Origin: Georgenia thermotolerans
GTDB lineage: Bacteria; Actinomycetota; Actinomycetes; Actinomycetales; Actinomycetaceae
NCBI RefSeq assembly: GCF_009193185.1
Contig: NZ_VUKF01000001.1
Span: forward strand, 1 to 64,000
Reading direction: 5' to 3'
DNA: 64,000 bases
This document shows, in pieces, positions 20,187-57,382 of this stretch (position 1 is its first letter; each line of letters begins with the position of its first letter). The translations under genes and the position numbers were made by a program. The notes below the pieces were generated by a model that ran no database searches, had not been told where the DNA came from, and saw nothing but the letters and a program-made list of their open reading frames with translations.

Positions 20187-20216
20187 ATTCTTGGGGATGA
20201 TTTGATCACATGTCAA
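20187..20216 (-). promoter_or_regulatory. regulon operator 1 with promoter (MocA/XdhC)
   Basis: On the minus strand TTGACATGTGATCAA (20202-20216) supplies the -35 TTGACA; AAGAAT (20187-20192) is the -10 after 18 nt. This is one of six copies of the exact 14-mer TTGACATGTGATCA. The site also sits about 30 nt upstream of divergent moaA. Confidence 0.75.
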
Positions 20217-20246
20217 CCATCAGCCGCGGTGGAACGGAGCTCTCAC

Positions 20247-21299
20247 ATGACGGTGCCGCTCGGTCTGCCTTCCCGCCTGCCACCTGACAGTCTCGGGCGC
20301 CCCCTGCGCGACCTGCGGATCTCGGTCACCGACCGGTGCAACTTCCGCTGCGTGTACTGCATGCCGAAGGAGGTCTTCGGACGCGACTACGCCTTCCTGC
20401 CCAAGAACGAGATCCTCACCTTCGAGGAGATCGCCCGCGTCGCCCGGGTGGCCGTCGCCCATGGGGTGGAGAAGATCCGCCTCACCGGCGGAGAGCCCCT
20501 CCTGCGTCGCGGGATCGAGGAGCTCGTCGCCGCGCTTGCGGAGCTGCGCACCTCGGAGGGTCGCCCCGTCGACGTCGCCCTGACCACCAACGGCTCCGCG
20601 CTCGCCGTCAAGGCGCGCGCCCTGAAGGACGCGGGCCTGTCGCGGGTGAGCGTCTCCCTCGACTCCCTCGACCCGGAGCGGTTCGCCGCGATGAACGACG
20701 TCGACTTCCCGGTCGCCAAGGTCCTGCGCGGCATCGACACCGCGCGCGAGGCCGGCCTCGACCCGGTCAAGGTCAACATGGTGGTCAAGCGCGGGACGAA
20801 CGACGCCGACGTCCTCCCCATGGCCCGGCACTTCAAGGGTACGGGCGTGATCGTGCGGTTCATCGAGTTCATGGACGTCGGCTCGACGAACGGCTGGCGG
20901 ATGGACGAGGTCCTGCCGTCGGCGGAGGTCGTCGCCCGGATCGACGCCGAGCTTCCGCTCGAGCCGGCGGCGCCCAGCTACCGAGGCGAGACCGCCGCCC
21001 GGTGGCGCTACCGCGACGGCGGCGGCGAGATCGGCGTCATCTCCTCCGTCACCGCGGCCTTCTGCAGGACGTGCACCCGCGCCCGCCTCTCCACCGACGG
21101 CAAGCTGTTCACGTGCCTGTTCGCCGAGCGGGGTCAGGACCTTCGCGCCGTCCTCCGCGACCCCTCGCGGACCGATGCCGACCTCGCCGCGACCCTCGGG
21201 GGGATCTGGGCCGCGCGGGAGGACCGATACTCCGAGCTGCGGGCCACCCTGAAGGACCGCCGCGCCGGACGGATCGAGATGTCCTACATCGGCGGGTGA
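20247..21299 (+). CDS. moaA: GTP 3',8-cyclase MoaA
   Basis: A 350-residue radical SAM enzyme that starts molybdenum cofactor synthesis from [11 protein letters not shown] (Cys31, 35, 38) binds the radical SAM cluster; Cys273, Cys276 and Cys290 bind the second, substrate-side cluster; LTGGEPLLR and the C-terminal GG are family hallmarks. Full length. No moaC or other moa genes are nearby, so this copy was probably recruited to boost cofactor supply for the cluster's hydroxylase. It is divergent from the MocA-like gene across operator 1. Confidence 0.95.
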
Positions 21300-21358
21300 C
21301 CCGCAGGGGCTGACAGGGCGACCGGCTCGGCGACCACGCCTCCGGTCGCACCCCGGCC

Positions 21359-21382
21359 GGCGCCGCGACGCGCCGCGGCGCC
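21359..21382. terminator. hairpin between convergent genes
   Basis: GGCGCCGCG (21359-21367) pairs perfectly with CGCGGCGCC (21374-21382) around ACGCGC, between the moaA stop and the stop of the flavoprotein gene. Confidence 0.6.
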
Positions 21383-21453
21383 GACCGCCACCTCCGCGCC
21401 GGGCAGGGCGCCGCACCCACCCCAGCGGTGCCGGTGCGGGCGCTGACGGCTCC

Positions 21454-23171: not shown

Positions 23172-24896
23172 TCAGTTCTCGGGCCGCGGGCGGGTGACGT
23201 GGAACCTGCCGTCGTGGAACAGCAGCGGGTCCCCGCCGGCCCAGGAGTAGCGCTCGACCTGGCCGACGTGGATGTCGTGGTCGCCGGCGTCGTGGACGGC
23301 TACGCGCCGGCACTCGAAGGAGGCGACGGCACCGGCGAGGACCGGCGCGCCGCCGAGCCCGTCGGTGTACTCCACGCCCGCGAACTTCTCGGGTGACCCC
23401 GACACGGAGAACTGGCGCGAGAGGTGGTGCTGGGCGTCGGCGAGGATGTTGACGGCGAAGTGCTCCGCGCCGGCGAAGGCGGGCAGGCTCGTGGCCCGCT
23501 TCGAGGGGCACCACAGAATGAGCGGGGGGTCGATCGAGACGGACGTGAAGGAGTTCGCCGTCATGCCGTGGCACACGCCGTCGGCGTCCCTGGTCGTGAC
23601 CACCGCCACGCCCGTGGCGTACTGGCCGAGGGCGGCGCGGAAGTCGCGGGGGTCCACCGGGCCGCGCGCCTCCGCGACACTGCGGGAGATCAGCTCAGCG
23701 GCGTCGGCCGCCTCGAACCACCAGCGGTACGCGGTGCGGGGGTCCTCGAGGCTGTTCGCCACCGCCTGGGCGACGCCGGGGACCGTCCCGGCCGCGGTGA
23801 GCAGCTTGCGCTGGTGCGCGGTGAGGTCCACGAGGACGGAGTTCGTCCACAGGACCGCCCACTTCGCCCATCCCCGCCAGAATGCCTCGAACGTCCGTCG
23901 CTGCCACCCGGCGTCGAACTCCCGCTCCCCCCGGCGCAGGATGGCGTCGAGGTAGAAGTCCGCTGCGAGGGTGGCGTTGTTTGACGGCTGCGAGGCGATG
24001 GGATCGGTCGCCACGACGGCGGTGCCCAGCCCGAGCACCGTGCGCCCCGACGGCAGGGTGCCCACCGGCTGGCGGACCACGGGCGTGACCCGGCCGCGGG
24101 CGACGGACGTCTCGTCCAGGAGGCGCGCGCCCGCGAAGCGTCCCGCCTGCGAGGGGAAGTGCTCGCCGAGCAGCTCGAGGGTGGTGGCGAGGTGGTCGTC
24201 GGCGTCGGTGACGGCCTCGAGGCGCCGAGCCAGGTCCGTGCCGGGCCGCCCCTCGAACATCATGACCTGGGCGACCCCCCGCTCGGTGAGCATGGGGTAG
24301 TTGAGGAACTCCCCGGCGGCGGGATCGACGGCCAGGTGCAGGGCGGCGCCGGCCGGGTCCGGGGCGACGCCCGTGACGAGGGCGACGGCGAGCACCCGCT
24401 GGGGCGCGGTGAAAGCGGTGCGGGAGTGGTCGGTGGGGAACACCGTGCCTACCTCGCCCTTGCCGGTGGCCACGATCGTGAGGTCGTGGGTGGCCGCCAG
24501 CTCCTCGGTGGCCGCCACGGTCATCGACTCGATCCGCAGCGTCCCTCCCCGCGACTGGAACAGCTCGAGCCAGGCGCTGTACTTCAGGCGCAGGTCGACG
24601 GAGCGCGCCGGCGAGTCGAAGGCGGTGCGCCAGTGCACCGGCTGGGGGCCGGTGAGGGTGAGGTCGAGGTCGCCGATCGTGGGCGCCTCACCCTCCCAGG
24701 TGGGCAGGTCGGAGTTGTCCTCCACCTCGAGCGCGGGAGCGAACAGGCACGAGGTCGCCATGACCGCGCCCGCGCGGATCTCCGCCGGGGCGCGGTCGGT
24801 GACCAGCGAGACCTCGTAGCCGTGGTGCTGGAGACCGAGGGCGAGCTGGATGCCCGCCTGCCCGGCGCCCACGATGGCGATGCGGCGTCCCGTCAC
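23172..24896 (-). CDS. fused flavin monooxygenase and flavin reductase (StyA2B-like)
   Basis: A 574-residue fusion. Residues 1 to about 410 are a group E FAD monooxygenase of the styrene/indole monooxygenase type (RRIAIVGAGQAGIQLALGL; DFYLDAILRRGEREF). Residues about 415-574 are an FMN/FAD reductase domain (FRAALGQYATGVAVVTTRDA, HGMTANSFTSVSIDPP). Such fusions (StyA2B of Rhodococcus) supply their own reduced flavin and epoxidise or hydroxylate styrene- and indole-like rings. The GTG at 24896 is chosen because AGGAGGAGG lies 7 nt before it; an in-frame ATG at 24917 overlaps that site and has none of its own. Confidence 0.88.
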   Translation of the reverse strand: MTGRRIAIVGAGQAGIQLALGLQHHGYEVSLVTDRAPAEIRAGAVMATSCLFAPALEVEDNSDLPTWEGEAPTIGDLDLTLTGPQPVHWRTAFDSPARSVDLRLKYSAWLELFQSRGGTLRIESMTVAATEELAATHDLTIVATGKGEVGTVFPTDHSRTAFTAPQRVLAVALVTGVAPDPAGAALHLAVDPAAGEFLNYPMLTERGVAQVMMFEGRPGTDLARRLEAVTDADDHLATTLELLGEHFPSQAGRFAGARLLDETSVARGRVTPVVRQPVGTLPSGRTVLGLGTAVVATDPIASQPSNNATLAADFYLDAILRRGEREFDAGWQRRTFEAFWRGWAKWAVLWTNSVLVDLTAHQRKLLTAAGTVPGVAQAVANSLEDPRTAYRWWFEAADAAELISRSVAEARGPVDPRDFRAALGQYATGVAVVTTRDADGVCHGMTANSFTSVSIDPPLILWCPSKRATSLPAFAGAEHFAVNILADAQHHLSRQFSVSGSPEKFAGVEYTDGLGGAPVLAGAVASFECRRVAVHDAGDHDIHVGQVERYSWAGGDPLLFHDGRFHVTRPRPEN

Positions 24897-24923
24897 GACC
24901 GGCCTCCTCCTGGGCATGGCGCG

Positions 24924-26450: not shown

Positions 26451-27638
26451 TCAGGCCGGGACGTCGTCGGTGCGGCCGCCCCGTGCAGCGCCTTCCAGGG
26501 GCGCGTCGGCAGCCGTGTCCTGCGACGCCGACGTCTCCGCAGGAATCGACGCCGGGCGTCCGGTCCGCACTCTCCCCCGCCCGGCGAGCCGGTCCCAGGG
26601 CCGGCGCAGGGCGAACTCCCGCCCGCCGGTGATGCCCTCGGGGCGCAGGAGCAGCACGAGGACGAGGACGGCGCCGAGGACGATGAGCCGGGCGCCCTCG
26701 GGAACCGTGACGATGACGGGCCCGAGGACGACGCCGCCCTGGAAGAGCTGGAGGGCGGAGTCGAGGACCGAATACGTGATGGTGCCGACCACGGCGCCCC
26801 ACAGGCTCTGGCGACCACCGAGGACCAGCATGGCGATGAGGGTGAAGGTGAACTCGATCCCGAGCTGGGAGGCCTGCACGACGCGGTTGGTCTCCGCCCA
26901 CAGGGCCCCGCCGAGCCCGGCGACCGCCCCGGAGAGCGCGAACGCAACGATCCGGTGCCAGGTGACGTTCACGCCCGACGCCGGCGCGGCGATGAGGGAC
27001 TCCCGGCTCGCGCGAAGCAGGCGGGCGCTGCGGGTCTGCTGGTAGAGCCAGGAGACGACGATGGCCGCGAGGGCGAAGAAGAGCAGCTGCTGCAGCCCGA
27101 GGGAGTTGGGGATGCCGACCATGGACTGCCCGCTGGGCGGGGCGATCTTCGTCCAGTAGGTCAGCACCTGCCCCACCATCAGCAGCAGGGCGAAGGTGGC
27201 GATGCCGGCCTGGAGGCCGTTGGCGCGCATGAGGAACGGGGCGACCACGGCGGCGAAGACGCCGCCGCCGATCAGCGCGAGTACGACTGCCGTGCCGAGT
27301 GGGAGCTGGGTGTCGATGAGGACCGGGAAGGCGTTGGAGAGGAGGTTGGCCTTGAGCACCGGGTCGATGACCATGAGCCCGAAGATCCAAGCTCCGACGG
27401 CGACGAAGGCCACGTGCCCGAAGGAGAGCACCCCGGAGTTGCCGATGAAGATCTGCAGGCCGACCACGATGACGAGGTTGACCAGCGCGTACTCGGCCTG
27501 GACCGGCAGGGCGCCGCCCATGAGGCTCGCCAGGAGGATCCAGACGTAGACGACCACGAGCGGGCCGGCGAGGGCGACGAGCCGGGTCCCGAGGCCGGGG
27601 CGGGCGGGAGCGTGCCCGCCGGAGGTGTCGGTGTTCAT
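26451..27638 (-). CDS. branched-chain-type ABC transporter permease (LivM-like)
   Basis: A 395-residue permease with about ten hydrophobic segments and the LivM loop LRASRESLIAAPASGVNVTW, the EAA-like coupling region, plus VLGGRQSLWGAVVG. It has a hydrophilic C-terminal tail of about 55 residues. It forms the channel with the LivH-like protein, whose stop overlaps its ATG by 4 nt. It follows solute-binding, ATPase and LivH genes in one operon, so it imports the same ligand, probably an amino-acid-like or aromatic acid. Confidence 0.93.
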   Translation of the reverse strand: MNTDTSGGHAPARPGLGTRLVALAGPLVVVYVWILLASLMGGALPVQAEYALVNLVIVVGLQIFIGNSGVLSFGHVAFVAVGAWIFGLMVIDPVLKANLLSNAFPVLIDTQLPLGTAVVLALIGGGVFAAVVAPFLMRANGLQAGIATFALLLMVGQVLTYWTKIAPPSGQSMVGIPNSLGLQQLLFFALAAIVVSWLYQQTRSARLLRASRESLIAAPASGVNVTWHRIVAFALSGAVAGLGGALWAETNRVVQASQLGIEFTFTLIAMLVLGGRQSLWGAVVGTITYSVLDSALQLFQGGVVLGPVIVTVPEGARLIVLGAVLVLVLLLRPEGITGGREFALRRPWDRLAGRGRVRTGRPASIPAETSASQDTAADAPLEGAARGGRTDDVPA

Positions 27639-28516
27639 GCGCGCTCCAGGACGGGGCCGCGGACCAGCAGGCCGGACGGCTTGAGGATGAGGATCACCAT
27701 GACGACCGCGAAGACGAAGGCGTTCCGGAAGTTCACCGCCTCGCTCGGCAGGTACGTGGTCAGGGCCGAGCTGGCGAAGCCGACCAGGAAGCCGCCCACC
27801 AGCGAGGTCCCGAGCTTGTCGATCCCGCCGATGACGGCGCCGATGAGCGCGAGCACCGTGATGTTCACGCCGAAGGTGGGGGCGACCGCACCGGTCTGCA
27901 CCGTGAGGACGAACGCGACCACGGCGGCCAGCGCTCCGCTGATGCCGAACGTCAGCGCGATGACCTTGTTCGCCCGGACCCCGAGCAGCCGCGCGGTGGC
28001 GAAGTCGGCCGACGCCGCCTGGACCTGGAGACCCAGGCTCGAGCGGTTGAGGAACTGGTGCAGGGCGAGGAGCAGGATCGCCGCCGCGAGGATCGTCACG
28101 AGCGAGAGCATCTGCACCCGCATGCCGCCGATCTCGACCGAGCGTGCCAGCGCCGGCGCCACCGGAGCGGTGCGGACGTTGTTGCCGAAGGCGATCTCGT
28201 AGACGCGCTGGAGCAGGAAGCTGAGCCCGAAGCTGGCGATGAGCAGGGTCGCGGGGTTGGCGCGGCGCATCCGCCGGAAGACGGCGAACTCCAGCAGCAG
28301 GGCGAGCACGACGGAGGCGACCAGCGCCAGCGGGAGCGCGACCCACGGCCCGAGGTGCCAGGTGAGCACCAGCGTGTAGGCGGCGATCGTGATGAGCTCG
28401 CCGTGCGCGAAGTTGGCCAGGCGCATGACGCCGAAGACGAGGCCGATGCCCAGCGCGGCGAGCCCGTAGAGGGCGCCGTTGGAGATGGCGTCGATGAGTG
28501 CTTGGACGTTGGTCAT
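27635..28516 (-). CDS. branched-chain-type ABC transporter permease (LivH-like)
   Basis: A 293-residue permease of the LivH class: ISNGALYGLAALGIGLVFGV at the N terminus, RLLGVRANKVIALTFGISGA as coupling loop, and GGIDKLGTSLVGGFLVG. About eight membrane segments. Its ATG overlaps the LivF-like stop by 4 nt. It is the first permease of the transporter. Confidence 0.93.
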   Translation of the reverse strand: MTNVQALIDAISNGALYGLAALGIGLVFGVMRLANFAHGELITIAAYTLVLTWHLGPWVALPLALVASVVLALLLEFAVFRRMRRANPATLLIASFGLSFLLQRVYEIAFGNNVRTAPVAPALARSVEIGGMRVQMLSLVTILAAAILLLALHQFLNRSSLGLQVQAASADFATARLLGVRANKVIALTFGISGALAAVVAFVLTVQTGAVAPTFGVNITVLALIGAVIGGIDKLGTSLVGGFLVGFASSALTTYLPSEAVNFRNAFVFAVVMVILILKPSGLLVRGPVLERA

Positions 28517-29238
28517 GATCCGAAGTAGGCCTTCGTGAGGAGGGCTTCGTCGTCGGCGGCCTCGGGCGTGAGCTCGAGGGTGATCTCGCCGTCGTGCAGC
28601 ACGTAGGTGCGGTCGGCGAAGGCGATGGTGAACTCGGCGCGCTGCTCGACGACGAGCACGGCGGTGCCCTGGGCGCGCACGGTCTCGAGGGCCTCGAAGA
28701 CCGTGTCGACCGCCGTGGGCGAGAGCCCGAGGGACGGCTCGTCGAGCATGAGGACGTCGGGCCGGGCCAGGAGCGCCCGGCCGATCGCCAGCTGCTGCTG
28801 CTGGCCGCCGGAGAGCAGCCCGGCCGTCCGGTCCGCGAACTCGCGCAGGATCGGGAAGAGCTCCAGGACGGCCTCGAGGTCCTCGGCGGCGCCGGCGCGG
28901 TCCCGCCGGCCGACCAGGCCCAGGCGCAGGTTGTTGCGCACGGAGAGGTCCCCGAAGATGTGCCGCCCCTCGGGCACCAGGGCCAGGCCCCGGCGGATCA
29001 CGGTCTCCGGGGCCAGCCCGGTGATGTCCGCGCCGCCGAGGCGCACGTCGCCCGTGCAGCGGACGGCGCCCATCAGCGCCTGGAGCGTGGAGGACTTCCC
29101 GGCGCCGTTGGGCCCGATGAGGCCCACCGTCTCGCCGCGCCCCACGGTGAAGGAGATGCCCTTCACCGCGGGGACGCCGCTGTAGCGAACCTCCAGGCGG
29201 TCCACCTCGAGGGCGGGGTCAGGCGGCGTCGTGGACAC
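28513..29238 (-). CDS. branched-chain-type ABC transporter ATPase (LivF-like)
   Basis: A 241-residue ATPase: Walker A GPNGAGKSS, ALVPEGRHIFGDLSVRNNL typical of LivF, signature LSGGQQQQLAIGRAL, Walker B VLMLDEPSLGLSP. The GTG start lies inside the end of the LivG-like gene (20-nt overlap) with AAGGAG upstream, so translation is coupled. Confidence 0.94.
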   Translation of the reverse strand: MSTTPPDPALEVDRLEVRYSGVPAVKGISFTVGRGETVGLIGPNGAGKSSTLQALMGAVRCTGDVRLGGADITGLAPETVIRRGLALVPEGRHIFGDLSVRNNLRLGLVGRRDRAGAAEDLEAVLELFPILREFADRTAGLLSGGQQQQLAIGRALLARPDVLMLDEPSLGLSPTAVDTVFEALETVRAQGTAVLVVEQRAEFTIAFADRTYVLHDGEITLELTPEAADDEALLTKAYFGS

Positions 29239-29974
29239 GTCCGCTCCTTCCCAGGTAGGCCTCGGCCAGGGACTCGCTGCCCTGGACCTCCGCGGGCGTG
29301 CCTTCGAGGAAGCTCTTCCCCTGGACGACGACGTGGATCAGGTCGCAGACGGCCATGATGAGGCGGATGTTGTGGTCGATGAGCAGCACGCCCGTCCCGG
29401 CGGCCGCGATGGAGCGCACCACCTCGCCGAACTCCCCGATCTCGCCCTCGTTGAGGCCGGCCGCGGGCTCGTCGAGCAGGAGGTAGCGCGGTTCCACGGC
29501 GAGCGCCCGGGCGACGCCGAGGCGCCGTTCGGTGCCGTGCGGGAGGGTGGCGGCCATCTGGTTGGCGCGGTCGGCGATGCCGAGCCGCTCCATCAGCTCC
29601 TCCGCCCGGCGGCGGGCCTCCGCCCGCCGCCGGCCGGTGCCGAGGGCAGCCACCTCGATGTTCTCGCGCACCGACAGCCCGTGGTAGGTGTGCCCGTGCT
29701 GGAAGGTGCGGGCCAGCCCCGACCGCGCCTTGGTGCGCGCGTCGGTGCGGGTCACGTCCGTGCCGTCCATCGTGACGGTCCCGGTGTCGGGGCGGTCGTA
29801 GCCGCTGATGATGTTCACCAGCGTCGACTTCCCCGCCCCGTTGGGGCCGATGAGGCCCAGCACGGCCCCCCGGGTCACCGCGAGGTCGACGCCGGAGAGC
29901 GCCTTGACCCCGCGGAAGGACCGGGTGATGCCGCTGGCCGCGAGCGTGTCGGTCATGGCTGCCTGCGCGCTCAT
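29219..29974 (-). CDS. branched-chain-type ABC transporter ATPase (LivG-like)
   Basis: A 251-residue ATPase: Walker A GPNGAGKST, ARTFQHGHTYHGLSVRENIE typical of LivG, signature reduced to LPHGTERRLGVARAL as often in this subfamily, Walker B YLLLDEPAAGLNEGE. The ATG at 29974 overlaps the binding-protein stop by 4 nt. Confidence 0.94.
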   Translation of the reverse strand: MSAQAAMTDTLAASGITRSFRGVKALSGVDLAVTRGAVLGLIGPNGAGKSTLVNIISGYDRPDTGTVTMDGTDVTRTDARTKARSGLARTFQHGHTYHGLSVRENIEVAALGTGRRRAEARRRAEELMERLGIADRANQMAATLPHGTERRLGVARALAVEPRYLLLDEPAAGLNEGEIGEFGEVVRSIAAAGTGVLLIDHNIRLIMAVCDLIHVVVQGKSFLEGTPAEVQGSESLAEAYLGRSGRVHDAA

Positions 29975-41769: not shown

Positions 41770-41834
41770 ATACTCCCCAGGGCGGCGCGCGGCGCAGTGA
41801 GGGCGCCCGCCGCCAAGCTGACGAGAGGGAACCG

Positions 41835-47825: not shown

Positions 47826-47830
47826 GCGGG

Positions 47831-48559
47831 TCACTCCTTGGGGTAGGAACGGTCGCGGCTCAGCGTCGAGCCGGTCATCGTGGCGGCGTCGGAGAGCAGG
47901 AACAGCAGGGGCCCGACGACGTCCTCGGGCGTGCCGATGCCGGTGGTGCGGGCCCAGTGCTCGCGCTCCGCCCCGTCGGGGTTGGCGGCGCGGAACTGCG
48001 GGGTGTCGACGACCCCGGGGGCCAGGACGTTGACGCGCACCCGGTGCTCGGCCACCTCGGCGGCGAGGGACTTGGCGAACGGGATGAGCGCCCCCTTGCT
48101 CGCCGCGTAGGCGGAGGCCTCGGCCCGGCCCATGTGCGCCAGGCCGGAGGTGAACAGCACGATCGAGCCGTCGCGGCGCGCGACCATGGACGGCAGCACC
48201 GCCTGGCAGGCCCACACGACGCCGTCGAGGTTCACGCCGAGCACCTTGCGCCACTCGTCGGGGTCCATGTCGGCGACGGCGGTGCGCGGCTGGATCGCGG
48301 CTCCCGCCACCAGGCCGGTGACGTGCCCGTGCTCGGCGACGACGGCGTCCACGGCACCGTGGACGGCGTCGCGGTCGGCGACGTCCACCCGCAGCTGGCT
48401 GACGCCCGGGGCGCCCACGAGGGCGTCGGAGTGCGCGACGTCGAGGACGACGGCCTGCCCGCCCGCGGCGCCGACGGCCCGCGCAAGGGCGGCGCCGATG
48501 CCGTTGGCACCGCCGGTGACGAGGACGACGTCCCCTGTCGAGTCGAAGCTGGTCTTCAC
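47831..48559 (-). CDS. SDR family oxidoreductase
   Basis: A 242-residue classical short-chain dehydrogenase: VVLVTGGANGIGAALA for NAD(P), and ASAYAASKGALIPFAKSLA with the YxxxK pair; FTSGLAHMG holds the Ser. PGVVDTPQFR is the usual substrate loop. The substrate is unknown; it likely oxidises an alcohol or dihydrodiol-type intermediate. The GTG overlaps the Ldh stop by 4 nt. Confidence 0.9.
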   Translation of the reverse strand: MKTSFDSTGDVVLVTGGANGIGAALARAVGAAGGQAVVLDVAHSDALVGAPGVSQLRVDVADRDAVHGAVDAVVAEHGHVTGLVAGAAIQPRTAVADMDPDEWRKVLGVNLDGVVWACQAVLPSMVARRDGSIVLFTSGLAHMGRAEASAYAASKGALIPFAKSLAAEVAEHRVRVNVLAPGVVDTPQFRAANPDGAEREHWARTTGIGTPEDVVGPLLFLLSDAATMTGSTLSRDRSYPKE

Positions 48560-49626
48560 CTGATGGCCTCCATGTCGGTTCGGGGAAGGTCCACGCCGAC
48601 GGCCGCGGCCGCCCGCTGCAGGCCCTCGAGGGTGCTCGGGTCCATGACGATGCCCTCGGCGGCGGCCCTGGCTGCGAGGGCGGCGCCGCGCTGGCCGGGC
48701 AGAACGACCGGGTCGGCGCCCGGGCGGGGCCGCGAGCCGAGGACGCCCGCGGCGAGCTGCGCCATGCCGGCGGCGAAGGCCTCGCGGCCCACGAAGTGCT
48801 CGACGTCGATGGCGAGGAAGAAGTGCGCGCAGTCGTTGGGGACCGCGGTGTCCTGGTAGAGCGGCGCCACCGCGGTGCCGAACGCCCCGCCGGAGAGCAC
48901 GCCCGCGAGGACGTCGACGACCAGGGCCAGGCCGAAGCCCTTGGCGCCCCCGGCGGGCAGGAGCATGCCCTCCAGGGCGGCCGCCGGATCCGCGGTGGGC
49001 ACGCCGTCGGCGTCGGTGGCCCAGGTCTCGGGGATGGGCCGCCCCTCCGCGGCGGCGATGCGGATCTTGCCCAGCGCGGCCTCGGACAGGGCCATGTCCA
49101 CACCGAGACCGGGGTCGCCGGGGGCGGCGACGGCCACGGGGTTGTTGCCCACGACCGGCTCGGCACCGCCCGGCGCGGGCATGAGCGGGCGGGTGTTGGC
49201 CATGGCCACCCCGATGCAGCCCTGGGCCGCGGCGAGCTGGGCGAAGGGCAGGGCGCGACCGAAGTGGAAGGCCCCGCGCACGGCGACCGCGCCGACGCCC
49301 AGCCGCTTGGCCTTCTCGACGGCCAGGCCCATGGCCTGCACGGCGGTGAGCTGGCCCAGCGCGTGGCCGGCGTCGAGGACGGCGCCGGCTCCGCCGTCGT
49401 CCCGGACGACGTGAGCGGTGGCGGCGGTGCTGACGGAGCCGGCCCGCAGGCGCTCGACGTACATCGGCACGAGCATCACCCCGTGCGAGGCGACGCCGTG
49501 GGCGTCGGCGTCGACGAGGCTGTCGGCGAGGGCGCGCGCCGGCTCGGGGGCGAGCCCGGCGCCCTCGAGGACGGCCGCCGTCGCGGCGGTGAGCCAGGCG
49601 GGGCTCACAGTGGATGGTGTGGTCAA
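48556..49626 (-). CDS. Ldh family NAD(P)-dependent oxidoreductase (copy 2)
   Basis: A 356-residue malate/lactate-dehydrogenase-like protein, same length as copy 1 and closely alike (HGVMLVPMYVERLRAGSVST, RPLMPAPGGAEPVVGNNPVA, GMLLPAGGAKGFGLALVVDV). The first in-frame start is a TTG at 49626 behind GAGAGAGGGAAG; a GTG at 49608 would shorten the protein by six residues. It follows gntR copy 3 by 48 nt. Confidence 0.88.
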   Translation of the reverse strand: MTTPSTVSPAWLTAATAAVLEGAGLAPEPARALADSLVDADAHGVASHGVMLVPMYVERLRAGSVSTAATAHVVRDDGGAGAVLDAGHALGQLTAVQAMGLAVEKAKRLGVGAVAVRGAFHFGRALPFAQLAAAQGCIGVAMANTRPLMPAPGGAEPVVGNNPVAVAAPGDPGLGVDMALSEAALGKIRIAAAEGRPIPETWATDADGVPTADPAAALEGMLLPAGGAKGFGLALVVDVLAGVLSGGAFGTAVAPLYQDTAVPNDCAHFFLAIDVEHFVGREAFAAGMAQLAAGVLGSRPRPGADPVVLPGQRGAALAARAAAEGIVMDPSTLEGLQRAAAAVGVDLPRTDMEAIR

Positions 49627-49674: not shown

Positions 49675-50364
49675 TCAGACGGTCATCGCCCGGCGCATGC
49701 GCTCCTTGGCGCCGGTGAGGTGGCGCCGCATCGCCCGCGCGGCGGCACCGGCGTCGTGGTCCAGGCAGGCCTGGAGGATCTCCGTGTGCTCGGCATGGCT
49801 GCGGGCGAGCGCCTCGGGGTCGCCCGGGGAGGCGAAGCGGTACCGCTCGCTGTTCTGCCACACCGGCTCGATGGCCCGGAGCATCCAGCGCGAGCCGGAG
49901 GCCCGGTACAGGAGGAAGTGGAACTCGGTGTGGGCGGCGCGGGCGGCGTCCACCTCCCCGCCGTGGAGCAGACGCTCGTGGCGCTCGAGCGCCACGCCGG
50001 CCTCGCCGCCCTGTTCCAGGGTGAACTGCCGGGCGGCGGCCGCGACGATCACGGGCTCGAGGGCGAGCCGGGTCGCGTACGTGTCCTCGAGGTCCACCAC
50101 CGACAGCTCGGCGACCCGGGCGCCGCGGTGCGGGACCACCTCGACGAGGCCGAGCGCGCCGAGGCGCCGCAGCGCCTCGCGCACCGGCATCGCGCTGGTC
50201 TCGTACTGCTCGGCGAGCTCCTGGATCCGCAGCCAGGACCCGGCCTCGAAGTCCCCGCCGAGGATGGCCCGGTGGAGCTCGACGGCGACGCGGTCGGCGA
50301 GGGTGCGCTGAAAGCCGGAGCCGTCGCCCGGGGAGAGCTCGAAGAGCTGGCTGGTGCTGCTCAC
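49675..50364 (-). CDS. GntR/FadR-type regulator (copy 3)
   Basis: A 229-residue regulator with winged helix (ELAEQYETSAMPVREALRRL, VPHRGARV) and FCD domain (ARAAHTEFHFLLYRASGS, AIEPVWQNSERYRF). It lies inside the operon, its GTG overlapping the permease stop by 4 nt, so it is made together with the transporter and catabolic genes. The N-terminal FELSP segment is shared with copy 1. Confidence 0.92.
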   Translation of the reverse strand: MSSTSQLFELSPGDGSGFQRTLADRVAVELHRAILGGDFEAGSWLRIQELAEQYETSAMPVREALRRLGALGLVEVVPHRGARVAELSVVDLEDTYATRLALEPVIVAAAARQFTLEQGGEAGVALERHERLLHGGEVDAARAAHTEFHFLLYRASGSRWMLRAIEPVWQNSERYRFASPGDPEALARSHAEHTEILQACLDHDAGAAARAMRRHLTGAKERMRRAMTV

Positions 50365-51194
50365 CGGTGCTCCTCCGCCCAGGGCAGCAGCGCCTTTTCC
50401 AGCCAGGCCAGCAGGTAGAACAGCACGATGCTCATCAGCGCCAGCAGGACGATCGCGGCGAAGGCGAGCGCGGTGTCGGCGCTGGCGCCGGACTGGACGA
50501 TGACGAAGCCCAGGCCCGATGACGCGCCGACGAACTCGGCGATGACCGCGCCGATGACGGCCAGCGAGATGGCGTTCTTCAGCCCGACGAAGACCTGCGG
50601 CAGGGCCCAGCGGAAGCGGATCTTGGCGAACTCCTGCATCTCGGAGGCGTCCAGCGAGCGGGAGAGCTCCACGAGCTCGGCCGGGGTCGAGCGCAGGCCC
50701 GAGACGGTGGAGAGCACGATCGGGAAGAAGCACAGCAGGATGACCATGACGATCTTGGGCGTCTGCCCGAAGCCCATCCACACGACGAGGATCGGGGCGA
50801 TGGCCACCTTGGGCACCGAGTTCACCGCGAGGAGCAGCGGGTAGAGCATCAGCTCCACCACCCGGAACCGGGAGATGGCCATGGCGACCGGGATGCCGAT
50901 GAGGATCGACAGCGCGAAGCCGAGGAGCGTCTCCCCCAGCGTGACCCAGGTCTGCTCGAGCAGGTAGGGCCCGAGCTCGACGAGCGTGCCGGCCACCACC
51001 TGGGGCCCGGGCACGAGGTACTCGGGGATCTCGAACAGGACGGTGGCCAGCCACCACAGCGCCGCGATGAGCACGACGGCCAGGACCGGCAGGCCCACGG
51101 TGGCCAGGGACTGCGAGCTGCGGCCACGGCGCCGGGCCGGGACCGTGCGGGTCGCCGGGGCGGTGCCGTTCTTCGGGGCGGTCACGGCGGTCAT
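50361..51194 (-). CDS. SsuC/TauC-type ABC transporter permease
   Basis: A 277-residue permease of the nitrate/sulfonate/taurine class with about six membrane segments and the EAA loop ELSRSLDASEMQEFAKIRFR; ALPQVFVGLKNAISLAVIGA is typical. It forms the channel of an importer with the next two genes. Ligands of this class include sulfonates, thiamin precursors and aromatic acids. Confidence 0.93.
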   Translation of the reverse strand: MTAVTAPKNGTAPATRTVPARRRGRSSQSLATVGLPVLAVVLIAALWWLATVLFEIPEYLVPGPQVVAGTLVELGPYLLEQTWVTLGETLLGFALSILIGIPVAMAISRFRVVELMLYPLLLAVNSVPKVAIAPILVVWMGFGQTPKIVMVILLCFFPIVLSTVSGLRSTPAELVELSRSLDASEMQEFAKIRFRWALPQVFVGLKNAISLAVIGAVIAEFVGASSGLGFVIVQSGASADTALAFAAIVLLALMSIVLFYLLAWLEKALLPWAEEHR

Positions 51195-51961
51195 GCGGCT
51201 GCTCCTTCGGGCTCGGGCATCAGCAGGTCGTGCAGCCTGGCGCTGACCCGCGTGACCTCGTCGGCGTGGGCGTTCTGCCCCAGGGTGCGGGGCCGGGGGA
51301 TGCCGACGTCGACGACCTCACGCAGCCGCCCGGGCCGCGGGCTGAGGACGACGACGCGGTCGGCCAGCAGCACGGCCTCGTCGATGGAGTGGGTGACGAA
51401 CACGATCGTGGTGTTCTCCTCGGCGACCACGCGCTGGAGCTCGACGGACAGCTCGGCCCGGGTCAGGGCGTCCAGGGCGGAGAAGGGCTCGTCCATGAGG
51501 AGGACCTTCGGACGCTGGATCAGCGAGCGGCACAGGGACACCCGCTGCTGCATACCGCCGGAGAGCTCGTGCGGGAGCTTGTCCTCGAAGCCCTTCAGGC
51601 CGGCGAGCTCGAGGAGCTGGTGCGCCCGCTCGCGGTGTGCGTCGCGGTCGAGCCGCAGGATCTCCACCGGCAGCATGAGGTTGTCCAGGACCGACCGCCA
51701 GGGCAGCAGCGCCGGACGCTGGAACATCACGCTGACGTCCCGGCGGGGCCGGCGCACCGGCTCGCCCGCCACCTTGACCGTGCCGGCGGTGGGGGTGATG
51801 AGCCCGGCAATCACCCGCAGGAGCGTGGACTTCCCGCAGCCGGAGCGGCCCACGAGGGTGACGAACTCGTTGGTGGCGACCTCGAGGTTGATGTTCTCCA
51901 GCGCGTGGACGGTGCCGGTTTTCGTGGTGAAGACCTGGGAGACGTTGTCGATGGAGATCAT
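51191..51961 (-). CDS. SsuB/TauB-type ABC transporter ATPase
   Basis: A 256-residue ATPase: Walker A GRSGCGKST, SVMFQRPALLPWRSVLDNLM typical of SsuB/TauB, signature LSGGMQQRVSLCRSL, Walker B VLLMDEPFSALDAL. The stop overlaps the permease ATG by 4 nt. Confidence 0.94.
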   Translation of the reverse strand: MISIDNVSQVFTTKTGTVHALENINLEVATNEFVTLVGRSGCGKSTLLRVIAGLITPTAGTVKVAGEPVRRPRRDVSVMFQRPALLPWRSVLDNLMLPVEILRLDRDAHRERAHQLLELAGLKGFEDKLPHELSGGMQQRVSLCRSLIQRPKVLLMDEPFSALDALTRAELSVELQRVVAEENTTIVFVTHSIDEAVLLADRVVVLSPRPGRLREVVDVGIPRPRTLGQNAHADEVTRVSARLHDLLMPEPEGAAA

Positions 51962-51968
51962 GGCCTGC

Positions 51969-53003
51969 TCACTTCCCGGGCGCGAGGTCGAAGTCGACGA
52001 CGTCCTCCGGGGTCACCGGGTTCTTCAGGGCCGGGCCCATGATGTCGATAGTCGACTGGACCCGGTCGGGGTCGATCGCGCCGACCTTCGTGCCGTCCAC
52101 CTCGACGTAGGGCGCCATGAGCTTGACCTCGGCGGTCGCGACGTCCTGGTTCTGGGTGGGCTGGTACTTGCGGAGGATCTCCCCGGTCTCCTCAGGGTTC
52201 TCCACCGAGTACTCCAGGCCCTTGAGCAGCGCCTCGGTGAACCGGCTCACCAGCTCCGGGTCGGCCTCGGCGAGCTTGTCGGAGGTGAACAGGACGTTGC
52301 CGTACAGGTCCGGCAGCACGTCGCCGTAGGGCAGGACGACGACGTCCTTGCCCTGCGCCGCCGCGGCGATGAGCGGCTCGCCCACGACGAACTGACCGAT
52401 CGCGTCGACCTGGCCGCTGACGAGCAGCTGAGGCAGGGCCGGGGGCGCGGCGGGGACGAACTCCACCGAGGCCGGGTCGAGGCCGGCGGCCTTGGCGTAG
52501 GTGGGGAAGATGACCTGGTTCGTCGAGCCGGGCTGGTCGCCGACCTTCTTGCCGGCGAGGTCGGCCGGCTCGGCGATGCCGCGGTCCCCGAGGGTGACGA
52601 CGGCGGCGAGGGACTTCTGGTGGATGACGCCGACGGTCGTCACCGGCAGCTGCTCGTTGGCGACGGTGACGACGACGGTGGAGAAGTCCCCGGTGCCGAA
52701 GTCCGCGCTGCCGGAGGCGACGAGCTTCATGACGTCGACCGTGCCGGAGCCGGGCTCGATGGTGACGTCGATGCCCGCCTCGTCGAAGAAGCCCTTCTCC
52801 TCGGCGACGTAGGCGTAGGCGTCGCGGCCGAAGGTGTTGAAGGACGTCAGGTACGTGACCTTGGCGGTCTCGCCCGCCGCGGAGGAGGACTTCCCGCCGG
52901 CGCTCGGGGCGGCCCCGGCGTCGTCGCTGGCTCCGCCGCAGGCGGCGAGGGCGAGGACGCCGACGAGGGCGGCGGCGGCGCTGAGGGTGCGTCGTGTCTG
53001 CAT
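51969..53003 (-). CDS. SsuA/NMT1-type substrate-binding lipoprotein
   Basis: A 344-residue lipoprotein with lipobox LALAAC (Cys22) and an SsuA/NMT1-like body (FFDEAGIDVTIEPGSGTVDV, SGSADFGTGDFSTVVV, DLAGKKVGDQPGSTNQV). It captures the substrate for the importer and starts the 12-gene run ending at 42566. The ligand is unknown, but the co-transcribed genes suggest it is the aromatic compound being degraded. Confidence 0.93.
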   Translation of the reverse strand: MQTRRTLSAAAALVGVLALAACGGASDDAGAAPSAGGKSSSAAGETAKVTYLTSFNTFGRDAYAYVAEEKGFFDEAGIDVTIEPGSGTVDVMKLVASGSADFGTGDFSTVVVTVANEQLPVTTVGVIHQKSLAAVVTLGDRGIAEPADLAGKKVGDQPGSTNQVIFPTYAKAAGLDPASVEFVPAAPPALPQLLVSGQVDAIGQFVVGEPLIAAAAQGKDVVVLPYGDVLPDLYGNVLFTSDKLAEADPELVSRFTEALLKGLEYSVENPEETGEILRKYQPTQNQDVATAEVKLMAPYVEVDGTKVGAIDPDRVQSTIDIMGPALKNPVTPEDVVDFDLAPGK

Positions 53004-53151: not shown

Positions 53152-53181
53152 AGCCTGCCCGAGAATTTGATCACATGTCAA
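53152..53181 (-). promoter_or_regulatory. regulon operator 4 with promoter (12-gene operon)
   Basis: On the minus strand TTGACATGTGATCAA (53167-53181) provides -35 TTGACA; CAGGCT (53152-53157) is a weak -10 after 18 nt. Further toward the gene, 53124-53140 has TGTGATCTTCATTGAC, a second degenerate half-site pair. The remaining parts of the gene-free interval 53004-53370 show nothing else recognisable. Confidence 0.7.
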
Positions 53182-53370
53182 GTTGCTGAATCGGCGCGTA
53201 TCGGTCGCAGCCGTACCGGCGCCGCACGGCGGCGTGGAAGGGCAGGGCGCGCCGGGTCGCGCGCACCTCCGGAGGGCGCGGTGGACGTCTCCCGCCCGTG
53301 TCGTGAACGGCGCCCAGCGCCCCGTCATGGACGACGCCCAGCGCTCCCGCGCGCCTGACGTGGAGGCACG

Positions 53371-54686
53371 TCAGGGCCTGCCGGCTCCCGCCGGAACCAC
53401 CGGGTCCGCCCCGACGAACCGTGCCCGGCCGGCGAAGCACCCGAGCACCAGCTGGGCCAGTGCCACGGCGATGATGAAGACGATCGCCGGCGCCCAGGAG
53501 CCGGTCCAGTCGCGGATCGCCGCCATGACGAGCGGACCGGCGGCTGCCATGAGGTAGCCCACCGTGTGGGCCATCGCCGAGAGACCGGGGACGTCGGCGG
53601 CAGTCCGGCTCCGCAGCACGATGAGAGAGAGCGCGAGGGGGAAGGTGCCCCCTCGCCGATGCCGAGCAGCACGGCCCACAGCCACGGCGCGGCGGCCGGC
53701 GCCAGGGCGAGCCCGGCCAGCCCGGCCAGGATGAACACGACCATCCCGGCCGCCGCGACCCGCTGGTCCCGGGCCCGGGAGCTGAGCACGGGGACGAGCA
53801 GGCCCGAGCCCGCACCGACGAGGATCGACGTCGAGAGCAGCAGTCCGGCGTTCGTGGCCGTCATGCCGGACTCGCGGGCGATGCTCGGCAGCCAGGCGAC
53901 GACGCAGTAGAAGCCCACCGACTGCGTGCCGAGGTAGGCCGAGACCTGCCAGGCGAGGGGGTGGCGCCACAGCTGCCGGGTCGCGGCCGAACCGAGGTCC
54001 GCCGCCGCGCCGCCCCGGCCCCTCGGCGCCCAGAGCACCAGGGCCACGACGGCGAGCAGGGCCCAGGAGGCGAGGCCCCAGCGCCACCCGCCCAGCCAGC
54101 CCGCGATGGGCACGGTGACCCCCGCCGCGATCGTGGCGCCGAGGGCGAGCGTGAGGGAGTACGCGCCCATCACCGCCATGGCCCGGCTGGGCAGCTCCCG
54201 GCGGATCAGTGCCGGGACCAGCACGTTCGCGACCGCGATGGCCCCGGCGGCGACCGCCGTGCCCAGGAGGAGCAACGCGAACCCTCCCCAGGGGCGGGCC
54301 GCCAGGGCCAGCGCCACGACGGCCAGGACGGCGAGGACGGTCCGCTCGAGGCCGAACCTCCGGGCGAGGCGGGGCGCGAGCGGCGCGCCCAGGGCGAAGA
54401 ACAGCAGCGGCGCCGTCGTGAGCACCCCGGCCTGGGTCACGCCGAGGCCGAGCCCGAGGTCGTCCCGGCGGATCTCGGGCAGGAGCGGACCCACGCTCGT
54501 CAGGGCGGGCCGGAGGTTGACGGCGACGGCGAGGAGGCTGAGGACGAACACCGCTGCGCCACCCCGCGTGAGGCGCCGGCCCACCGCCGGCGAGTCGTCC
54601 CCCTCCCCCGCGACGGTGAGGCCGTCGGGACCCTCCGGCGGGCGTGGCGAGACGCGCCGCGGCGCCCCCTCTCTCAGATCGCACAT
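53371..54686 (-). pseudogene. frameshifted MFS transporter (CynX/NimT-like)
   Basis: A 12-helix major facilitator: GVTQAGVLTTAPLLFFALGA, GAIAVANVLVPALIRRELPS and WGLASWALLAVVALVLW fit the CynX/NimT group (small anions, nitroimidazoles). After LLGIGEG the frame leaves homologous text, which resumes in another frame as TFPLALSLIVLRSRTAADVP and runs to the stop at 53371. One extra base in the C run at 53648-53652 restores about 440 residues. The ATG at 54686 is tentative. Operator 5 upstream ties it to the regulon. The break may be an assembly error. Confidence 0.75.
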
Positions 54687-54806
54687 GGCTGAGGCGCCTC
54701 CCCGTGTCGTGTCGCGGCACCCTCCGCCGGACGGCGCCTCGCGCGGCCTGGCGGCCGAGCGGAGCACGTACCAGGGACGACGGCGGCGCTCGGCGGGGGC
54801 GTCGGG

Positions 54807-54835
54807 ATTCTTCAACCGATTTGATCACATGTCAA
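54807..54835 (-). promoter_or_regulatory. regulon operator 5 with promoter (MFS gene)
   Basis: On the minus strand TTGACATGTGATCAA (54821-54835) gives -35 TTGACA; AAGAAT (54807-54812) is the -10 after 17 nt, the same -10 as at operator 1. The rest of the gene-free 54687-55097 shows no clear promoter for the divergent RutA-like gene. Confidence 0.78.
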
Positions 54836-55097
54836 CGCGCGTCGGCCCCTCCGCCGAACGTTCAGCTGACTGCGCCTCCTGGACGAGCCCACACGACCGC
54901 GCGTCCCGCGGGAGCCGGCGCACGACCGCGCATCTCGGAGCGCAGTCCGCGCGAGGTGGATAGACGCCGCCTCCGCCCCCGCCACAGACTCGATGCATCG
55001 GCCGCCCGACGTCGCGCGCGCCGCACCGCTCCATCACCGGGCCCGGCGCCGTCCGGGCCGTCCAGGACAAGTACCCCCTCGACCCACGGAGGTTCAG

Positions 55098-56231
55098 ATG
55101 GCTCGACCGATCAAGGAAGCCCCGGACTTCAAGCTCGGCACCTTCAGCTCGAACTGCTCGTCCGGTCTGGCGGTGACGAAGGCACCCGACCGGTGGTCGG
55201 GCAGCTGGGCGGACAACCTCCGGCTCGCGAAGATCGCCGACGAGGCGGGTATCGACTTCATGCTGCCCATCGCGCGCTGGATCGGGTACGGCGGCAAGAC
55301 CAACTTCCACGAGGGCGTGCTCGATCCCACCGTCTGGGCCGGGGCGTTGCTCGCCCACACCCGGCACCTCTCCGTCTTCGCCACCGTGCACACGGCGTTC
55401 AACCACCCCATCGTCGTCGCCAAGCAGCTGGCGACCGTCGACCAGGTCGGGCAGGGACGGGCGGGCATCAACATCGTGGCCGGCTGGAACAAGCCGGAGT
55501 ACGACACCTTCGGTGTCGAGCTTCCCCAGGACCACGACGACCGCTACGCCCTCGCCCAGGAGTGGTGGGACGTCATCCGCAAGATCTGGACGACACCGGG
55601 CAAGTTCGACCATGACGGCAGGTTCTTCCATCTCCGACACGTCGAGGGCATGCCCAAGCCCTACGACGGCGTCCTGCCCGTGCTGAACGCCGGCTCGTCC
55701 AAGCAGGGACGGGAGTTCGCCGCGCGCAACGCCGACTTCGGGTTCACGATCGTCGGCGGCCCCGAGGACGGGCGCGAGATCGCCGCCTCCATGAAGGCTC
55801 AGGCCCGCAACCAGTACGGCCGCGAGGCCGGCGTCTTCACCCTCGGTCACGTCGTGTGCCGCCCCAGCCGGAAGGAGGCCGACGAGTTCCTCCACTACTA
55901 CGCGGACGAGCAGGCCGACTGGTCCGCCGTCGACAACCTCATGGCCCTCCAGGGCCTGCACGCGCAGTCCTTCACGCCGGAGATGCTCGCCACGTTCCGC
56001 GCCCGCTTCGCCGCCGGCCACGGCAGCTGCCCGCTCATCGGCACGCCCGACGACGTCGCCGACGAGATCCAGCGGTTCCACGAGGCAGGCTTCGACGGGA
56101 TGACCGTGGCGTTCTTCGACTACGCCGGTGAGCTGGAGTACTTCGCCGCCGAGGTCCTCCCTCGCCTCGAGGCCCGGGGTGTCCGCCAGGCCCGCGACTG
56201 GGACCGGGAACCCGCGACGCTGAAAGCCTAG
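55098..56231 (+). CDS. LLM-class flavin monooxygenase, RutA-like (copy 2)
   Basis: A 377-residue RutA-like monooxygenase: FSSNCSSGLAVT, ARWIGYGGKTNFHEG, TVHTAFNHPIVVAKQLAT, NIVAGWNKPEYDTFG. It keeps the same Thr/Asn/Trp oxygen-pocket positions as copy 1. No flavin reductase gene is adjacent, so it may use the reductase at 34571-35083. GGAGG stands 6 nt before the ATG. It is transcribed toward araC and ridA copy 2. Confidence 0.9.
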   Translation: MARPIKEAPDFKLGTFSSNCSSGLAVTKAPDRWSGSWADNLRLAKIADEAGIDFMLPIARWIGYGGKTNFHEGVLDPTVWAGALLAHTRHLSVFATVHTAFNHPIVVAKQLATVDQVGQGRAGINIVAGWNKPEYDTFGVELPQDHDDRYALAQEWWDVIRKIWTTPGKFDHDGRFFHLRHVEGMPKPYDGVLPVLNAGSSKQGREFAARNADFGFTIVGGPEDGREIAASMKAQARNQYGREAGVFTLGHVVCRPSRKEADEFLHYYADEQADWSAVDNLMALQGLHAQSFTPEMLATFRARFAAGHGSCPLIGTPDDVADEIQRFHEAGFDGMTVAFFDYAGELEYFAAEVLPRLEARGVRQARDWDREPATLKA

Positions 56232-56245
56232 ACGGCCCGGCCGCG

Positions 56246-56262
56246 TGTGATGGATGATCACA
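56246..56262 (+). promoter_or_regulatory. operator-like site at the araC start
   Basis: TGTGATGGATGATCACA pairs a TGTGAT half with TGATCACA, the regulon core. The first possible ATG of the regulator gene (56254) lies inside it, so either the true start is further downstream or the site controls a leaderless mRNA. Confidence 0.4.
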
Positions 56263-57357
56263 TCCTCAGTCGAGGAGGTGGTCCTCCTGATCACGCAGCA
56301 GCCGGCTGGGGGTCGCACGGCGCCGCGCCCCCAGCAGCCGGTGCCACCGCCGGCGAAGTCACGCACTCCCCAGGCCACCGCGGCGGGCGCAGCCGCCGCG
56401 CCCGCCGCGGTGGCCCGCATGCGCACGCGCCGGTTGCACGAGCTTCGTGACTCGGTGGCGCGGGCGGCGACTCCCCACGAGATCACGTTGCGGGGCGGGA
56501 AACTCGACGGCGCCATGGAAGCGTCGCCGGTGGCCCAGACGAACGTCGTGTTCATCCGCTACGGGGCGGACGTCCTCGTTGAGGCGGGGCCCACCGGCGA
56601 CCGCTTCGTCCTCACCCTCCCGCTGGGACCGATGGGGGTGGGCAGGGACACGGTGGAGCGCCGGCTCTCCTCCCCCTTCGTGCTCGCGCCCGACCGCCGG
56701 ACGCTGATGGCCCCGGAGCCGGTGGACGGTGCCCTGGTGGTGGCGACGAGCATCGCCCGGGTACGGGACCAGCTCGCGGCCCTCGCCGGCACAGCCCCCG
56801 ACGGCGACCTCGAGTTCCGGTCGGAGTCCGCCGAGCGCGCGCCCCTGCCGCCGGCGTACCTGGAATCTGCCTGCCGGTCGGTGGCCGAGACGCTCTTCCG
56901 CTGCTCCGGCCTTCCCGACCTTGCCGCCCGGTCGCTCGAGCAGACCCTGCTCTCCGCGGCGCTGCTGGCCGTGCCGCACAACCACTCGCGGATGCTGCTG
57001 AGCGGGTCGGCGCGGGTGTCGACGTCGCACGCGGAGACGGCCAGGGCGTGGATGGCGGACAACCACGGGGTCACCGTCACGGTGCCGGACGTCGCGGGCG
57101 CGGTGGGCCTGTCGGTGCGCCAGCTGCAGAGCGTCACCATGGAGCGTTTCGGCCTCACGCCGACCGCGCTCCTGCGGGGGATCCGGCTGGCCGACGCGCG
57201 CCGCCGCCTGACCGGGGACGGCGGCGACGTCGCCACCACCGTGGCCAGCGCCGCTCATCAAGCGGGTTTTGCCCATCTCGGGAGGTTCGCGCAGGTCTAC
57301 AGGAGGACGTACGGCGAGACGCCGTACCAGAGCCTGGTCCGCGCGCAGGGGCGTTGA
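56254..57357 (+). CDS. AraC family regulator
   Basis: The C-terminal 100 residues are a double helix-turn-helix (TVPDVAGAVGLSVRQLQSVT and FAHLGRFAQVYRRTYGETPY). The middle (about 60-230) is the AraC-binding-like domain (NVVFIRYGADVLVEAG). The first 55 residues are Ala/Pro-rich and may not be translated: the ATG at 56254 lies inside an operator-like sequence without a ribosome site; other starts are a GTG at 56275 or an ATG at 56419. It is a probable activator of the neighbouring genes. Confidence 0.8.
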   Translation: MITSSVEEVVLLITQQPAGGRTAPRPQQPVPPPAKSRTPQATAAGAAAAPAAVARMRTRRLHELRDSVARAATPHEITLRGGKLDGAMEASPVAQTNVVFIRYGADVLVEAGPTGDRFVLTLPLGPMGVGRDTVERRLSSPFVLAPDRRTLMAPEPVDGALVVATSIARVRDQLAALAGTAPDGDLEFRSESAERAPLPPAYLESACRSVAETLFRCSGLPDLAARSLEQTLLSAALLAVPHNHSRMLLSGSARVSTSHAETARAWMADNHGVTVTVPDVAGAVGLSVRQLQSVTMERFGLTPTALLRGIRLADARRRLTGDGGDVATTVASAAHQAGFAHLGRFAQVYRRTYGETPYQSLVRAQGR

Positions 57358-57382
57358 CATGTGATCACACTGATCGTAGGTT
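57354..57382 (+). promoter_or_regulatory. regulon operator 6 with promoter (ridA copy 2)
   Basis: TTGACATGTGATCAC (57354-57368) overlaps the araC stop; -35 TTGACA and -10 TAGGTT (57377-57382) are 17 nt apart. Of the six sites this has the best promoter. The ATG lies about 35 nt past the expected start point. Confidence 0.8.

Follow-up and report, generated by a model that had tools for sequence, protein, structure and literature searches.

We analyzed a 64,000-nucleotide stretch of Georgenia thermotolerans DNA (contig NZ_VUKF01000001.1, positions 1 to 64,000; hereafter the window), in which a catabolic gene cluster carries at least eight copies of a short palindromic element, TGTGATCACA or a variant of it. 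Six of them belong to exact copies of a 14-mer, TTGACATGTGATCA, which is TTGACA joined to most of that palindrome. From these sequences we consider it quite probable that the cluster is a local regulon, in which GntR proteins of the FCD type would repress transcription through a predicted operator lying between the −35 and −10 hexamers of its promoters.

The exact copies of TTGACATGTGATCA are located at 20203-20216(−), 40712-40725(−), 41755-41768(+), 53168-53181(−), 54822-54835(−) and 57354-57367(+). A preliminary description of this DNA had listed all six, with coordinates one base too wide, and had held that such repetition cannot be chance, with which the statistics agreed. In the window, whose GC content is 73.5%, a first-order Markov model predicted 2.6 × 10−5 exact copies (0.0019 in the genome), and TTGACATGTGATCA topped the ranking of the 12 most repeated 14-mers; with up to 3 mismatches allowed there were 7 matches, a number that none of 100 dinucleotide-preserving shuffles attained (mean, 1.03). 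The one-mismatch search proposed in that description, run over the whole genome (4,638,305 bases, 116 contigs), revealed no seventh exact copy and a single copy with 1 mismatch, on another contig (C20:44929). Furthermore, the sequences around the sites differ from one another outside the element. Chance or a recent segmental duplication is thus refuted as the origin of the repeats, the former by the roughly 0.00003 exact copies expected and by the genome search, the latter by the differing flanks, and we give the two together practically no probability.

As had also been described, the sites are intergenic or at a gene edge and face genes: all six copies face a cluster gene (the start of one of these, an MFS transporter gene, is uncertain), and the AraC-type gene upstream of one of them terminates on the TGA inside TTGACA at 57354-57359. 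A −10-like hexamer, nAnnnT, follows TTGACA at 17-18 nt in five of the six, the same count as before, the gntR2 site being the one without it.

The 14-mer had been taken as the unit; we regard the palindrome TGTGATCACA as the unit instead, since two sites lack TTGACA. Perfect TGTGATCACA occurs four times in the genome, always within the window, and with up to one mismatch it occurs at 18 places, 8 in the window and 10 elsewhere (reversed control, 5). This search yielded two sites beyond the original six, at 31286-31295 (exact) and 40830-40839 (one mismatch), both without TTGACA. The earlier notion of a regulon gains support from the absence of exact copies elsewhere and from the conservation in congeners, with at least eight sites rather than six, as follows.

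Site 1: 20203-20216, minus strand, TTGACA plus operator; core 20201-20210, TGTGATCAAA; −10 candidate AAGAAT at 18 nt; before mocA/xdhC-like genes, between these and the divergently oriented moaA (20247)
Site 2: 31286-31295, minus strand, perfect TGTGATCACA; CATATC in place of TTGACA; CAAGAT 4 nt past the core; before a branched-chain-type ABC operon
Site 3: 40712-40725, minus strand, TTGACA plus TGTGATCACA; core 40710-40719; −10 candidate GATGCT at 17 nt; before coxM-coxS-coxL-coxG
Site 4: 40830-40839, plus strand, CGTGATCACA; no TTGACA; 6 nt before TACACT; before gntR1
Site 5: 41755-41768, plus strand, TTGACA plus TGTGATCACA; core 41761-41770; no clear −10 at 17-18 nt; before gntR2
Site 6: 53168-53181, minus strand, TTGACA plus TGTGATCAAA; core 53166-53175; −10 candidate CAGGCT at 18 nt; before an SsuA-type ABC operon ending in gntR3
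Site 7: 54822-54835, minus strand, TTGACA plus TGTGATCAAA; core 54820-54829; −10 candidate AAGAAT at 17 nt; before the CynX/NimT-type MFS gene
Site 8: 57354-57367, plus strand, TTGACA plus TGTGATCACA; core 57360-57369; −10 candidate TAGGTT at 17 nt; before a RidA-type gene

Sites 2 and 4 share with five of the six others, the gntR2 site excepted, a core close before a −10-like hexamer (CAAGAT and TACACT, respectively). Using a scoring matrix built only from 22 sites of three other Georgenia genomes, we obtained 33.6 for the six exact sites and 21.7 for site 2, both above the maximum of 18.3 in 10 Markov simulations.

The exact 14-mer was present in 4 of 99 genomes compared, all of them Georgenia: this genome (G000), G003, G007 and G008. 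These four, among nine Georgenia genomes, all have gntR1 and gntR2. G. subflava (G004) has one GntR relative of 61% identity and one TTGACATCTGAT, before its SsuA operon, and the other four Georgenia genomes yielded neither the exact 14-mer nor a GntR relative above 38% at an E value of 1e-20. The clusters are rearranged among the three congeners, and the sites travel with the genes. Over 12 promoter pairs between this genome and G007 or G008, the core was identical at 115/120 positions (96%), a figure that holds partly by construction as sites were picked by their core, and the preceding hexamer, to which this does not apply, at 62/72 (86%), while the ungapped flanks of the same pairs agreed at 199/528 positions upstream and 213/528 downstream (38-40%); this sum comprises neither the closer G003 pairs nor the ridA2 pair with G007, which has two core changes. 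At site 2 the core and CATATC are kept in G003 and G008, with one change in each of the two in G007. Other departures are TCTGATCAAA at ssuA of G007 and TGTGATCAAC at mocA/moaA of G008.

The candidate binders are encoded by three genes of the cluster.

gntR1: 40903-41598, plus strand, GntR and FCD domains (Pfam); ortholog in 3 of 8 congeners
gntR2: 41835-42533, plus strand, GntR and FCD domains (Pfam); 62% identical to gntR1
gntR3: 49675-50364, minus strand, GntR and FCD domains (Pfam), last gene after SsuABC-type genes; 63% identical to gntR1

All three proteins have an N-terminal GntR winged helix domain (PF00392; E values 7.9e-17 to 1.5e-16) and a C-terminal FCD domain (PF07729; 7.6e-27 to 8.2e-24), and they have the recognition helix TS[AS]MPVREALRRL in common save for one S/A difference. 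H150, H192 and H214 of gntR1 are invariant in the three paralogues and may be metal ligands; several FCD members are described as having a metal site of three histidines plus Asp/Asn (PMC7797058). In a tree of 27 proteins, gntR1, gntR2 and gntR3 formed three clades within one supported group together with proteins of Actinotalea and G274, and gntR3 grouped with the G. subflava protein. An ortholog of gntR3 is present in G003 and G. subflava; none was seen in G007 or G008, which leaves gntR1 and gntR2 as the conserved candidates there. Further GntR relatives comprise two of 42-43% identity elsewhere in G007 and one of 38% in this genome.

The earlier suggestion that GntR proteins are natural binders was strengthened by distant genera. 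Two peptide patterns drawn from the three GntR proteins were searched against contigs of 84,980 species and matched at 22 loci, of which 20 (L035-L054) remained after two congeners were set aside, and up to 10 kb was fetched on each side. Seventeen of the 20 contain the pattern TTGACATNTGAT, including Actinotalea, Streptosporangiales, Micromonospora and Thermoleophilia bins, whose GntR proteins are 42-46% identical. It lies directly before gntR in the Thermoleophilia-like loci and before the operon in others; in three Streptosporangiales loci it precedes a dehydrogenase gene ~9.5 kb from gntR, and a related element precedes the orthologous ssuA in G. subflava, Actinotalea, G274 and four Micromonospora. 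At the genome level, TTGACATNTGAT was found in 17 of 19 genomes, with 33 of 39 matches in GntR clusters and none for the reversed control; the two genomes without it (G283 and G795) give identical gene matches and are probably one Jiangella genome. Five of the six matches outside clusters were fetched. One (L079:10223) stands 66 nt before a more distant GntR gene (30% identical) and another (L075:10186) precedes SsuABC-like genes, so the operator class may reach beyond this regulon; of the other three, one (L081) has a partial GntR match at a distance of 4.4 kb, and for the remaining two no similarity to window genes was seen. Class-wide, 59 of 394 genomes have at least one TTGACATNTGAT match, versus 1 of 394 for the reversed control. 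The GntR3 protein search in the class at E 1e-35 gave matches in 5 of 394 genomes (the own genome included where drawn), and TTGACATNTGAT was present in 4 of 5 class genomes with a GntR match, apparently from the same draw. A cupin search returned 1 of 396 genomes in the order, namely this one, and 2 of 22 in the family of G283.

The other lineages also informed the role of TTGACA. Among 20 GntR-linked sites outside the four genomes, 14, from 8 of 10 lineages grouped by hand, have nAnnnT at 17 or 18 nt, whereas control offset pairs from 24 nt on gave 0-5 of 20 (mean, 1.4); the five sites outside clusters were excluded from this count, and 7 of the 20 sites are of one Thermoleophilia-like lineage, to which L041 (labelled Burkholderiales) was assigned by sequence likeness. 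With the five outside sites and without Micromonospora, 8 of 21 sites had the hexamer at a spacing of 17 nt and another 8 at one of 18 nt. Thus, TTGACA is likely to be the −35 hexamer in most lineages. The two lineages without such a hexamer stand apart. In four Micromonospora the element, with TTGACATTTGAT conserved, lies over the −10 of a promoter reading TTGACG-17-TTTGAT, a short distance upstream of AGGAGG; in two family f51 genomes TTGACATTTGAT runs in the reverse direction relative to the transporter gene that comes next. Because TTGACA is kept in these two lineages, where it is unlikely to be a −35, it is probably an operator arm as well, one with a likely second role as −35 in most lineages. 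In keeping with this reading, Actinotalea (TTGACATCTGATCAAATGTCAG) and G007 (2509848) each have a palindrome of 22 bp that is nearly complete. The picture of an operator welded to the −35 gains support from the −10 peak at 17-18 nt in other lineages, with the amendment that TTGACA itself is probably part of the operator.

These observations also bear on whether the repeats could be no operators at all but housekeeping promoters of high strength that share a consensus −35 and resemble one another in their flanks. TTGACA being the consensus −35 and followed by a −10-like hexamer at 17-18 nt, such promoters would look alike in that respect; yet the conservation reaches 10 bp into the spacer, the core occurs without TTGACA at two promoters (sites 2 and 4) in all four genomes, and TTGACATTTGAT is kept at the −10 position in four Micromonospora and reversed in the two f51 genomes, which makes this explanation highly improbable.

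From the sites, their number, position and conservation and their co-occurrence with GntR genes, we infer binding, repression, an inducer and an acting paralogue as follows. One or more of the cluster's three FCD-type GntR proteins would bind, as a dimer, the palindromic core TNTGATCANA in the −35/−10 spacer and block RNA polymerase at the molybdenum-hydroxylase, maturation, two ABC, MFS, RidA-type, gntR1 and gntR2 promoters. The pathway substrate or an intermediate, probably bound in the FCD domain, would release the repressor. In six of the eight promoters the outer operator arm would be TTGACA, doubling as the −35 hexamer.

Activation by a GntR protein from the same sites is compatible with the sequence. 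We rate it as improbable, though, as the core lies between −35 and −10 at the normal 17-18 nt spacing, where a dimer should exclude the polymerase, and as the FCD repressors Atu1419 (over −10 or between −10 and −35) and AlkR (over −10) have their sites there (PMC7797058, PMC12042122).

Another regulator of the cluster could own the operator, the obvious one being the AraC-type protein (56419-57357), whose gene adjoins site 8 and is preceded, here and in G007, by a related sequence, TGTGATGGATGATCACA. Against this, the regions fetched from G003 and G008 contain sites but yielded no ortholog of it, and the loci in other genera were found via GntR alone, which, as they were chosen by GntR, is not an unbiased test of other regulators. 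The first of these points makes the AraC-type protein an unlikely binder, and we hold a non-GntR owner to be quite improbable. TGTGATGGATGATCACA itself, at 56246-56262, is an inverted repeat with a 5-nt gap, kept in G007 (2500642), and is possibly a spaced operator variant or an AraC site; with a matrix score of 14.3, below the simulation maximum of 18.3, it was not counted as a ninth site despite its recurrence.

Several observations weigh against repression by GntR proteins at these sites. Within the window, site 4 scored just 12.6, below the simulation maximum, and on the strand opposite gntR1, its gene-oriented reading being absent from the 22 best matrix matches; it was counted because the palindrome has a single mismatch and the site recurs in all four genomes, irrespective of the score. 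The gntR2 promoter has no clear −10 at the expected place, and some cluster genes, e.g., 35080-36204, have no recognizable site of their own, unless they are read through from upstream. Among the congeners, the ridA2 site of G007 is TTGACATATGAGCACA, with two core changes, and the gntR2 promoter of G003 has ATGACA. Farther away, 3 of the 20 GntR loci lack the element, namely Jiangella L039, where no match with fewer than 4 mismatches to TTGACATBTGATCAAA was found, and Phyllobacterium L053 and L054 (GntR 35% and 32% identical). TTGACATNTGAT is not exclusive to GntR carriers either: of the 389 class genomes in which no GntR match was seen (E 1e-35), 55 have it, nearly always once, while the reversed control is far rarer (1 of 394 genomes). 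Finally, most sites outside Georgenia have no GT/AC boxes of the kind usual for FadR-type operators.

Genes of the cluster are listed below; gene names are family names, as many NCBIfam matches were below curated cut-offs.

18405-20124, minus strand: XdhC-type and MocA-type (NTP transferase) genes for the maturation of a molybdenum hydroxylase (NCBIfam, below curated cut-offs)
26451-31194, minus strand: branched-chain-type (Liv-like) ABC transporter genes downstream of site 2 (open reading frames; named by reading the sequences without family search; orthologs in relatives)
36343-40635, minus strand: coxG, coxL, coxS and coxM molybdenum hydroxylase genes (NCBIfam below cut-offs; Pfam for CoxG)
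42566-49608, minus strand: lower-pathway genes for ACMSD-like amidohydrolase, FAA-hydrolase type, RidA type, cupins, FAD monooxygenase, SDR and malate/lactate-type dehydrogenase (orthologs clustered in other genera)
50361-53003, minus strand: SsuA/SsuB/SsuC-type ABC transporter genes downstream of site 6 (SsuA by NCBIfam below cut-off; conserved neighbours; SsuB and SsuC named by reading the sequences)
53325-54551, minus strand: CynX/NimT-type MFS transporter (NCBIfam; start uncertain; frame seems disrupted near the C-terminal end)
56419-57357: AraC-type gene, adjoining site 8
57423-57824, plus strand: RidA-type gene downstream of site 8 (NCBIfam, below curated cut-off)

Altogether, the cluster contains molybdenum-hydroxylase subunits, XdhC- and MocA-type maturation proteins, MoaA, and FAD and luciferase-type monooxygenases, and further an FAA-hydrolase type, an ACMSD-like amidohydrolase, two RidA types, cupins, dehydrogenases, ABC and MFS transporters, one AraC-type and the three GntR genes. 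These enzymes suggest a nitrogen-containing aromatic or heterocycle as the pathway substrate. For coxM, 40635 (ATG preceded by GAGGAAGG) is a better start than 40701, giving a site-to-start distance of 90 nt. The MFS gene (53325-54828) appears frame-disrupted, whether by a sequencing error or by decay: the family match extends only to profile position 301 of 355, and a tail resembling a membrane protein goes on in another frame. At 23172-24917 a StyA-like monooxygenase is fused to a flavin reductase domain, an arrangement seen in one-protein styrene/indole monooxygenases. Besides the three GntR genes, paralogous enzyme pairs (FAD monooxygenase, luciferase-type monooxygenase, dehydrogenase, RidA type and carotenoid-desaturase-like) lie in 21454-57824, as if two related pathways had been stacked.

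A predicted operator for this GntR group is testable and would tie a catabolic pathway into one regulon, and the conserved sites offer exact probes toward the inducer and hence the substrate. The cluster also offers a small-scale example of the way in which regulons may grow where the promoter hexamer forms part of the operator. Along this line, a speculative and on balance doubtful extension is that Actinomycetota have an uncharacterized operator class whose outer repressor arm is made of the −35 bases, so that the promoter-operator cassette could be copied before new genes and would have multiplied in Georgenia to eight sites, where most other lineages have one recognized site; all three repressors, their recognition helices being nearly identical, would bind each operator, and a promoter would open only when all had been released, each by its own pathway metabolite.

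In the open-licence literature we found no published motif for this GntR group, no paper with TTGACATGTGATCA, or with TGTGATCACA together with GntR, and none on the cluster genes; TGATCAAA together with GntR led to a paper in which the string occurs in primers. Atu1419 of Agrobacterium fabrum, a VanR-group FCD GntR repressor, recognizes the palindrome ATGTATACAT (PMC7797058). As here, it has GntR and FCD domains and a short even-length palindrome common to the promoters of a catabolic cluster, its own included, overlapping the −10 or sitting between −10 and −35; unlike there, the center here is TGATCA, eight sites stand against three identical palindromes, there are three paralogues, and binding is predicted from sequence. 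AlkR, the GntR/VanR repressor of alkB2 in Pseudomonas aeruginosa SJTD-1, is similarly an FCD-type GntR protein acting on an oxygenase gene via a palindrome, which lies over the −10; its motif, ATTGTCAGACAAT, has GT-N3-AC boxes (PMC12042122), in contrast to TNTGATCANA here. In most groups of the FadR subfamily, operators are palindromes with GT and AC 3 or 2 nt apart, NanR and BioR being named as exceptions (PMC4494728). Like those regulons, ours has palindromic operators found by genome comparison, with a palindrome near the regulator gene or operon; GT/AC boxes 2-3 nt apart are absent, however, as the Georgenia core is GT-GATC-AC, with the boxes 4 nt apart, or only half of it (TGTGATCAAA), and the TCTGATCAAA and TTTGATCAAA forms of other lineages have no such boxes. 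The predicted operator would thus be another exception besides NanR and BioR, departing from the FadR-subfamily description while the proteins are ordinary FCD members.

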